A DNA stretch of 64,000 nucleotides from Bacillota bacterium (GTDB taxonomy: Bacteria > Bacillota > UBA994 > UBA5500): the NCBI GenBank assembly GCA_029781045.1, contig JAKOXL010000029.1, forward strand, positions 150,627 through 214,626, in the 5' to 3' direction. Positions 9,728 to 21,730 of the stretch are shown here, one piece after another (position 1 is the first letter of the stretch; every line of letters begins with the position of its first letter). The notes below the pieces were generated by a model that was not told where the DNA came from, did no database searches, and was given only the letters and a program-made list of their open reading frames with translations. The position numbers and the translations under genes are program-made.

Positions 9728-10483
9728 TTATCCGCCTAAAGCAGTTCTTAGTTTCTGCAGAATTCTCTTTTCCAAACGAGAAATCTGGACCTGTGACACA
9801 TTTAAATGTTGGGCCACTTCCGTCTGAGTCTTACCTTGAAAATAGCGCATTTTAATGATCTGTTGTTCGCGCGGTGCCAGCTCCGATATCAATGTCTGTA
9901 AAGTAATATTGTTAGTCCAAGCTTCATCAGGTTGCTGCTCGTCGCTCAGGTGATCGAGTAAATAAATGGGATTACCATCATCTTGATATATCTCACTCTG
10001 TAGTGATGCCGGGGTGCTTGTTGCTTCTAACGCTAATACTAGAGTCTCAGCCGTGACATCTAGGGCTGATGCCAGTTCTTCGATGGTCACCTCCCGTCCC
10101 AAGGAAGAGCTAAGGTTTTCTTGCTCACGACGCGCTCTAGCCGCTAACTCCTTGAGGCTACGACTCACTTTCACTGGACCGTTGTCCCGCAAATAGCGAC
10201 GGATCTCGCCCAGTATGAGTGGAACAGCATAAGTAGAAAACCGAACATCTTGATTCAAATCAAAACGATCAATAGCACGAATCAAACCTAAACAACCCAG
10301 CTGAAACAAATCCTCCATTTCGACCTGTCGGTGGGCGAAGCGGCCTATCATCGAACGAACCAGGCGTAGATTACAGTTCACCAAGTAGTCACGAGCCCAG
10401 GTATCACCAGCCTGGGCACGGGCAATCAACAGCTTGGTCTCCTCGTCCGTCAATAACGGCAATTTTCTCTCCGGTTCCTGCAT
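9728..10483 (-). CDS. sigF: RNA polymerase sporulation sigma factor SigF
   Basis: Sigma-70 regions 2-4; follows spoIIAA-spoIIAB. Confidence 0.95.
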   Translation of the reverse strand: MQEPERKLPLLTDEETKLLIARAQAGDTWARDYLVNCNLRLVRSMIGRFAHRQVEMEDLFQLGCLGLIRAIDRFDLNQDVRFSTYAVPLILGEIRRYLRDNGPVKVSRSLKELAARARREQENLSSSLGREVTIEELASALDVTAETLVLALEATSTPASLQSEIYQDDGNPIYLLDHLSDEQQPDEAWTNNITLQTLISELAPREQQIIKMRYFQGKTQTEVAQHLNVSQVQISRLEKRILQKLRTALGG

Positions 10484-18917: not shown

Positions 18918-19535
18918 TTACAGGAGGCGGGCAATCAGTTTTACTAATAGGGGCGAAAACCAGGTTTCGATTACACTGGCAACAAATATAACGATTCCCA
19001 TCAAGATACAATTACCGCTATACTGGGTAAAACGTTGACGGAAAGTGGTGCGCCGAGGACGCAAACTAGGACGTAGGGTTTGGAAAGTAAAGTATATGGA
19101 CATAGCAGAGATTACCAATATGGCAGGTACCAGCAGCAGGTTATGGGGCAGAACTGAACAGGCCGCCAATAAGAAGCCCTTAGCCCCCATTTCGTGCACC
19201 AGAAAACCCACGGAAAACCCCAACACAAACCCTTGCAGAAAAACTAGGATTATCACAAGTGGCAGGCCGAAAACCACTAGACCCATCAACCAAATAAGCC
19301 CTGCCAGCTGCAAGTTGGCCGTTAGAGTTTGCAGAAAGACGGCCGACCCATTAGGCACCACCATACCGCTGGCAAAAAACTGCTGCAGAAAGGCCAACAG
19401 ATCTTGTTTTTGACTAAAGGTGAGCGCTTTCACCGCAATGGCACCAAAGATCACCCCCACTGCAAACAATACCAGCACAAAAAAGTAGCTTACGAAATGC
19501 TCTTCAAGATGCTGCCGTAGTCTTGAATAAAGCAT
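18918..19535 (-). CDS. spoIIM: Stage II sporulation protein M
   Basis: SpoIIM-type multi-TM protein: FVLGFSVGFLVHEMGAKGFLLAACSVLPHNLLLVPAILV. Confidence 0.92.
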   Translation of the reverse strand: MLYSRLRQHLEEHFVSYFFVLVLFAVGVIFGAIAVKALTFSQKQDLLAFLQQFFASGMVVPNGSAVFLQTLTANLQLAGLIWLMGLVVFGLPLVIILVFLQGFVLGFSVGFLVHEMGAKGFLLAACSVLPHNLLLVPAILVISAMSIYFTFQTLRPSLRPRRTTFRQRFTQYSGNCILMGIVIFVASVIETWFSPLLVKLIARLL

Positions 19536-19599
19536 TTTCGGCCCTCCTCCCCTGCTTGTCTATAAACAGCCTATGCTGGTTGTGCAAAATTAGAAGTAT

Positions 19600-19628
19600 G
19601 TTTATTCTGCCGCCTAACCGCATAAGCT
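19600..19628 (+). promoter_or_regulatory. Candidate sigma-E promoter for the 44-aa ORF
   Basis: GTTTATT-N14-CATAAGCT, compared with a remembered sigma-E consensus KMATATT-N14/15-CATACAMT. Confidence 0.4.
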
Positions 19629-19652
19629 GAGAAAAACGGTTGGGAGGGCCCT

Positions 19653-19787
19653 ATGCAACAATTGGTTCTTAAACATGGCTACTGGCTAATGGGTTGTAAA
19701 GGTGAGGTTCTAGAACAACTCCAAAGACTGAGCAGGAGCTATGGCAACATCCCTTTCGTACAACTCCTGAAGCTGTTGCAGACTTAG
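19653..19787 (+). CDS. mciZ: 44-aa protein, candidate MciZ-like FtsZ inhibitor
   Basis: MQQLVLKHGYWLMGCKGEVLEQLQRLSRSYGNIPFVQLLKLLQT; RBS GGGAGGG; pattern GxxL(V/M)GxxxE(I/V)xxxL shared with B. subtilis MciZ (recalled); next to spoIIM. Confidence 0.55.
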   Translation: MQQLVLKHGYWLMGCKGEVLEQLQRLSRSYGNIPFVQLLKLLQT

Positions 19788-19793
19788 TCAAAA

Positions 19794-19830
19794 AACACCC
19801 CAATGGCCAGAAACGGGCCATTGGGGTGTT
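19794..19830 (-). terminator. Terminator downstream of the MFS gene
   Basis: 15-bp perfect stem AACACCCCAATGGCC/GGCCATTGGGGTGTT followed by TTTT on the minus strand; lies between convergent genes. Confidence 0.85.
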
Positions 19831-19833
19831 GCA

Positions 19834-21045
19834 TTACGACTCTTGCACGAAACTCTTACGCTGCTTACTCAGCTGATAATAGAACACAGAGGCAATGGTG
19901 GCTATACCAAAGGCTAGGAATCCTAGCAGAAAAGGCAACTTGGGGTTAATTGTGTATAGCAGACCAGCAGACAAGGCCCCAAAAATGCCCCCCAAGGACT
20001 TAAGGCCATTGAAATATCCCATAACTAAGTTGCTGTCGCTAGTCTTGGCCATGGCGGCTACCAAGCCTTGCGTAAGTGGCACACTAACCGCATAAAACGC
20101 GAAGTAGAGCACATTTGCGGCCACAAACGGTACCAGGGAGTTAAAGAGGATCACGCCTAGAATGGACAAGGAAGCCGACAGGTAAACGTAAATCGAGGTG
20201 AGCTTTATATCCGTTCTGTTCACTAACCAGAGAGCTAGAGTACTGTTTGCTGCCAGACAAACAAAGCCAATTACTGCCTTAATGGCCCCATTATATCCGG
20301 AAGATAAGCCCAATTGGGCCTTCAAATAATAGTTAAAGCTTTGGTCAAAAGCACTATTGCCCAGATTGGAAAAGGAACTGACCACAAAGAGGGTAATCAA
20401 GAGGGGCGTCATAATACCTCTACCAGCGATAAGAGCAGAAATAGGATTGGCCTCTCGAAACAGCTGTTTGAACCGGATATCACTCATCTTGTGGACAGCA
20501 TCATCCTCGCAGATGAAGTAAAAGGCAATGCCACAAATGGAAAGCGTAACTACCTGCGCCACGATGGCCGCATTAACGCTTAGCTCTCCAAGCATTCCAC
20601 CAACAAAATAGCCAAAAGCACTACCAACGGTCTGGATAGTAGCAGCGATGGTGAGATAGTTGCCCCGTAGATGCGGGGGCGAAGTGTTGACCAAATAGGT
20701 TAGGAAAGCAGTGAAGACTCCACCGGTGAAAACGCCGGCGAACAATCTGGCACCTACCATCATACTCTCGCTACTAGCCATGCCAAATAGGGCTTGTCCA
20801 GCCGCATAGCCGAGGCTGCATATTAGAATGACGCGCCTACTGGAAATATAGTTGACAGACTTCCCCCAAAAAGGCGAAAAAAAGAAGTTGGCGGTCATCA
20901 TCGACGCTAAAGCTACGCCAAACATGTAATCACCGAATCCCCGTTGTTGAATGATGGTGGGGGTTACCGGGTGCGCAAAGCTGGCCGCCATGTTGAAAAG
21001 CATGTTCACTCCTAAGAACAGCAGAGCTCTTTTCCTATCGTGCAT
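19834..21045 (-). CDS. MFS transporter
   Basis: About 12 TM segments, MFS fold; start refined to MHDRKRALL after GGAGGATGTACG. Confidence 0.85.
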   Translation of the reverse strand: MHDRKRALLFLGVNMLFNMAASFAHPVTPTIIQQRGFGDYMFGVALASMMTANFFFSPFWGKSVNYISSRRVILICSLGYAAGQALFGMASSESMMVGARLFAGVFTGGVFTAFLTYLVNTSPPHLRGNYLTIAATIQTVGSAFGYFVGGMLGELSVNAAIVAQVVTLSICGIAFYFICEDDAVHKMSDIRFKQLFREANPISALIAGRGIMTPLLITLFVVSSFSNLGNSAFDQSFNYYLKAQLGLSSGYNGAIKAVIGFVCLAANSTLALWLVNRTDIKLTSIYVYLSASLSILGVILFNSLVPFVAANVLYFAFYAVSVPLTQGLVAAMAKTSDSNLVMGYFNGLKSLGGIFGALSAGLLYTINPKLPFLLGFLAFGIATIASVFYYQLSKQRKSFVQES

Positions 21046-21153
21046 CGTACATCCTCCGCCCATCTTGTTGTCTTTGGCAGGCACTATCGTTTAATGAAAT
21101 TTAGTATAGCATACTTATCTGTAATCGAATAGTTAAGATGCTGTATATAAAAA

Positions 21154-21193: not shown

Positions 21194-21730
21194 TTAACCC
21201 ACTAGTTTACGGCCTCTATCTAAAGCCTGTTCATTCAGAGGTAGCAGGTGATGGCGATGAGGTGGAAGAGCATGCCGGAGCGCAGTCAGAATAGACTGCA
21301 TTTCAACCATGGGTTTCTTACCCAGCAGGGCACCTAGCGCCACCATATTAGCAATACGATCATTACCTAGTTCGTTGGCTATCTCGTTTGCGGGGACTGC
21401 TACAACTTCAATGTCCGTGCGTTTTGGTGAACGCGTAATAAGGGAACTGTTATAGACAAGTAACCCGCCTGGCTTGATGCTATCTTCAAACTTGTCCATA
21501 GATGGTAAGTTCATCGCCACAACGATCCCGGGGCGAGTAATGAGCGGACTACCAACAGGTCTATCCGATACCACGACGGTACAGTTGGCGGTACCACCGC
21601 GCATTTCCGGCCCATAGGAAGGTAACCAGGATACATGCTTACCCTCGGTCATGCCAGCATAGGCCAGCAACTGTCCCATCAGCATTACACCTTGACCACC
21701 AAAACCGGCAAGAATCATCTCAAACGTCAT
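21194..21730 (-). CDS. 2-oxoacid:ferredoxin oxidoreductase gamma subunit
   Basis: [53 protein letters not shown]. Confidence 0.92.

Follow-up and report, generated by a model that had tools for sequence, protein, structure and literature searches.

A 44-residue gene divergent from spoIIM is a probable, highly diverged mciZ orthologue in an uncultured Bacillota lineage

In the genome of a Bacillota bacterium (GTDB lineage Bacillota; UBA994; UBA5500), a 44-codon gene directly upstream of and divergent from spoIIM very likely encodes a divergent orthologue of MciZ, which would probably cap FtsZ in the mother cell. The gene lies in what we call the window, the whole 64,000-nucleotide stretch of contig JAKOXL010000029.1 (positions 150,627 to 214,626; assembly GCA_029781045.1) that was analysed here. 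A divergent MciZ at this position had been proposed in an original prediction made without database searches, and this interpretation is largely supported: profile searches, synteny in distant Bacillota, conservation of the −10 promoter motif and a structural match together support homology to MciZ at the level of sequence comparison and modelling.

Results

The open reading frame (ORF) runs on the plus strand from an ATG at position 19653 to the end of its stop codon at 19787 and encodes the predicted 44-amino-acid protein exactly (MQQLVLKHGYWLMGCKGEVLEQLQRLSRSYGNIPFVQLLKLLQT). The ribosome-binding site GGGAGGG is located as claimed at 19642–19648 (plus strand), 4 nt upstream of the ATG; purine-rich ribosome-binding sites were found in front of most MciZ homologues as well. 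The orientation described for the neighbouring genes also holds, both being identified by profile matches. The divergent spoIIM (18918–19535, minus strand; TIGR02831, E 1.2e-52; PF01944, 6.1e-30) is separated from the ORF by 117 nt, and the gene on the other side, which codes for an MFS transporter (19834–21084, minus strand; PF07690, 5e-31), is convergent with it. Between the convergent genes, a 15-bp hairpin (19794–19830; z −6.1) with a U-tract on the minus strand only is a predicted intrinsic terminator of the MFS gene. A second DNA match of the locus within its own genome was rejected, as it was only a self-match of this hairpin.

The wider surroundings include porG at 21194–21730, just past the MFS gene, and a gene at 9743–10459 (minus strand) which resembles a sporulation sigma factor and is matched by the sigma-E model in two pieces. 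The latter is possibly sigF of a spoIIA operon, and the window therefore appears as a wider sporulation cluster. Elsewhere in all four genomes of the family, a second, divergent SpoIIM-family protein is encoded (TIGR02831, E 1e-7 to 1e-9; L077 at C40 79124–79684 in the window's own genome G000, and also L076, L078 and L079).

Conservation of the reading frame in related genomes, which the original prediction had singled out as a test, was found in all three other genomes of the family, G001, G002 and G003 (two from the same genus and one from another genus; 64, 55 and 50% identity), and the ORF is divergent from spoIIM each time. Over the four family genomes, pN was 0.20–0.34 in frame versus a pS of 0.73–1.08, with synonymous sites near saturation, and the remaining two frames showed no such contrast. 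As the frame is conserved with a low pN in that frame alone, the ORF is more than a product of chance. Judged from these alignments, it is a real gene whose protein is under strong purifying selection. Invariant residues in the family include W11, G14, K16, E18, L20, L23, Y30-G-N-I33 and the LL-x-LL end. At the locus of G001 (L082, 1415–2019 and 1078–1269), spoIIM is divided between two frames and the mciZ-like ORF is extended C-terminally through a low-complexity tail; these oddities are possibly assembly errors or signs of decay.

Curated profiles gave no direct match. PF13072, the Pfam MciZ family, matched neither the window protein (cut-off 22.2 bits) nor L006 and had no match above cut-off in the family genomes; likewise, no MciZ-type match to the window protein was found with NCBIfam, and its direct comparison with PDB sequences, Pfam and NCBIfam returned nothing related. 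Over 21 relatives, the best PF13072 match (16.3 bits) was an ORF of the Bacillota MAG X3_MetaBAT.12 (G004/L083), which belongs to another family of the class. This ORF is directly divergent from spoIIM and preceded by the −10 sequence CATAAGCT, and its product shares with the window family an insertion of two residues before the last helix, although it is only 16% identical to the window protein. A direct Pfam match, the second test singled out in the original prediction, was not obtained for the window protein itself, but its syntenic counterpart in the sister family has a low-scoring one, and a broader MciZ HMM does detect the window protein.

This HMM was built from 13 Bacillota sequences that score above the PF13072 cut-off and come from outside the window's class. 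It ranked the window ORF first among the 1901 stop-to-stop frames of the window (E 0.0024; runner-up 0.84), and none of 5000 shuffles of the protein reached its score. In the same control for L004, five shuffles reached the score with the 13-sequence HMM and none with the larger HMM. A 23-sequence profile, again without members of the window's class and with B. subtilis MciZ among its rows, scored the orthologous ORF higher than any other in the complete genomes of G003 (E 0.0045), G002 (0.025) and G001 (0.62, with near ties) and gave no match in the window's own genome. Searched against the PDB, it retrieved 2mrw and 4u39 chain J, both B. subtilis MciZ, at ~1e-15, the B. subtilis sequence being itself a row of the profile. 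Alignment of the four-member family with the MciZ sets using HHalign yielded probabilities of 93 and 96%. The own-genome match of profile A4 (E 6.9e-13) was discounted as evidence, since A4 includes the window protein and the match is circular. A search with the window protein reached a homologue in G051 (E 0.30) which PF13072 matches too and which is divergent from nudF; weak matches in G012, G047, G010, G008 and others, located in different or long reading frames, were dismissed as chance.

The B. subtilis MciZ sequence given in the original prediction proved letter-perfect when compared with the published one (PMC5045927). The two proteins are of similar size (40–44 amino acids) and their first 30 residues align without gaps, with only M1, G9, L12, G14, E18, L23 and R28 identical; at 18% identity, the window protein lies below Pfam detection. 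Some points of the shared motif that had been proposed are weak, only G14 and L23 being near-invariant in the family. The window protein differs further by two additional residues between the helices and by L in place of R20.

An AlphaFold2 model built from 25 aligned homologues, including MciZ sequences, reached a pLDDT of 90.6 and consists of two strands (residues 2–6 and 9–13) and two helices (16–30 and 35–43). With its 44 amino acids, the protein thus resembles MciZ both in its size of about 40 residues and in its hairpin-helix-helix arrangement, for which the MciZ-rich alignment was needed. Among 350,542 PDB chains searched with Foldseek, 4u39_J had a TM-score (0.63/0.75; rmsd 1.3 Å over 31 columns) far above all others in the list as well as the top probability (0.33); its E-value of 5.2 is attributed to the shortness of the chain. 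The model from the four family members alone was poor (pLDDT 65.8) and was rejected as a fold-search query. As its N-terminus is helical, the hairpin counts as support conditional on homology and is no independent proof. In 4U39, a crystal structure of FtsZ with MciZ, the MciZ hairpin completes the C-terminal sheet of FtsZ (PMC4929429), and the N-terminus of free MciZ is disordered (PMC7430163).

To place the gene in a broader context, we compared 80 named spoIIM loci, accepting MciZ-HMM matches at E ≤ 0.02. Each of the 40 accepted matches is found upstream of spoIIM and reads in the opposite direction. Seventeen weaker matches were spread over both strands and sides; L121 and the other named-locus matches above E 0.02 were discarded. 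On this positional evidence, the MciZ slot of Bacillota is the stretch immediately preceding spoIIM, and nudF would have been lost from it in the window's lineage. The start of the MciZ-like ORF could be assigned in 36 of the 80 loci (L084–L157), where it comprises ~40–46 codons and is divergent from nudF/spoIIM. Its distance to spoIIM is ~100–250 nt in the window's class, ~680–850 nt with nudF in between, and mostly ~1700–1900 nt where nudF and a PHP-associated protein intervene.

MciZ-like ORFs are widespread in Clostridia and Negativicutes, and those run against PF13072 were mostly under its cut-off; the Pfam model exceeded it in 14 of 399 Bacillota genomes, several of these matches adjoining nudF and/or spoIIM in divergent orientation. 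Cultured hosts include Sporomusa, Alkaliphilus, Anaerosolibacter, Thermotalea and Thermohalobacter, and further examples come from Caloramator and many Bacillota MAGs. These ORFs agree with the window gene in strand, side relative to spoIIM and length, and share the core G(K)-x3-(E/D)-(I/L/V)-x3-L and, in most cases, the upstream motif CATANNNT, but they stand beside nudF and lack the two-residue insertion. The B. subtilis gene likewise has a sigma-E-type −10 element and a divergent place in the nudF/spoIIM neighbourhood, whereas the window has no nudF, so that mciZ directly adjoins spoIIM. Seven other genomes of the class contain spoIIM with no mciZ detected by the profile, so the gene is dispensable or has diverged there. 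A gene of the porG type (2-oxoacid:ferredoxin oxidoreductase subunit) adjoins spoIIM in most of these seven, apparently so in L066, L067, L069 and L070.

The core of sigma-E −10 elements in B. subtilis is CATA. Of the sigma-E-like promoter proposed for the ORF, both elements are located where predicted: the −35 candidate GTTTATT at 19600–19606 (plus strand), 14 nt upstream of the −10 candidate CATAAGCT at 19621–19628 (plus strand), with 24 nt between the end of the latter and the ATG. The spacing is compatible with sigma-E promoters. The −10 motif is conserved, but the proposed −35 shows no visible conservation in the family alignment. Between −55 and −15, CATANNNT occurs upstream of 27 of the 36 MciZ homologues, and none of the four from the window's class lacks it; shuffled sequences gave 2 such cases on average and 8 at most, and the reverse strand gave 3. 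On the minus strand, CATAGGCT (19568–19575) is a sigma-E-type −10 candidate for spoIIM, with 0.1 sites of this kind expected on each strand of the intergenic region between the two genes; its core, which reads TATGC on the complement, does not vary among the four family genomes. Genes for FtsZ and for sigma-E, the latter scoring above the curated cut-off, are present in the genome. Of 399 Bacillota genomes, 96 of the 341 with sigma-E had an MciZ-profile match, against 1 of the 58 without it (p 5e-7, with relatedness ignored).

Discussion

In B. subtilis, MciZ is transcribed in the mother cell by sigma-E RNA polymerase, binds the C-terminal domain of FtsZ, caps filaments at their minus end and blocks a second septum (reviewed in PMC6126333, PMC7430163 and PMC4929429). 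Carried over to the organism studied here, mother-cell sigma-E RNA polymerase would use the promoter containing CATAAGCT and transcribe the gene away from the adjacent, oppositely oriented spoIIM. The N-terminal hairpin of the peptide, followed by helix 16–30 and the short helix 35–43, could then join the β-sheet of the FtsZ C-terminal domain. By analogy, minus-end capping of FtsZ filaments by the peptide would keep a second septum from forming after polar division. What the present data show is a constrained gene that is homologous to MciZ and has a conserved place and a conserved −10-like motif; sigma-E dependence, FtsZ binding and capping we infer from B. subtilis. The contacts with FtsZ must differ in detail, because R20 of the B. 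subtilis protein is L here and this position is variable across the family.

This substitution, the large divergence, the class-specific insertion between the helices and a tryptophan in the N-terminal strand of the family would also suit an MciZ descendant with another target or mode, for example one that acts on a different divisome protein or binds FtsZ without capping it. We regard such a change of function as improbable, given that the modelled fold, the synteny and the −10 motif are all kept and that G14 and L23 are retained. Still less probable is that an unrelated small sigma-E gene came to lie in the spoIIM slot by chance and resembles MciZ through its composition and helix pattern. 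The absent direct Pfam match, the weak scores and the family-only alignment, which predicts no hairpin, speak for this explanation. It has to be set against the first rank of the frame with the MciZ HMM, the failure of shuffled sequences to reach its score, the bridging G004 homologue in the same slot and the identity of this slot with that of MciZ across Bacillota. That the locus contains no gene but a chance ORF within the spoIIM regulatory region, to which its shortness of 44 amino acids might point, is hardly credible for a frame that all four family genomes conserve, in which alone pN is far below pS, and which has a ribosome-binding site and promoter-like motif of its own.

Taking the gene as a divergent mciZ, its wider distribution may be a new finding, although this is not certain: we found no report of MciZ outside B. 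subtilis and other Bacillus in the literature searched, which covered few subscription journals. We lean towards the view that MciZ is an ancestral component of the Bacillota endospore programme, hidden by its size, encoded divergently from nudF/spoIIM in Clostridia, Negativicutes and the deep class of the window, and lost in many lineages. If this is true, the post-septation block of FtsZ would have the same age as sporulation. With an orthologue under constraint in a deep lineage of uncultured Bacillota, and a slot shared with many Clostridia and Negativicutes, one can test whether the mother-cell FtsZ block is ancestral to sporulation, and the diverged proteins supply natural candidates for FtsZ-binding peptides. 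The case also illustrates how a developmental regulator of 40 amino acids slips past size cut-offs and Pfam, and suggests that MciZ-like peptides are widespread, yet easily overlooked, in distant spore-formers.
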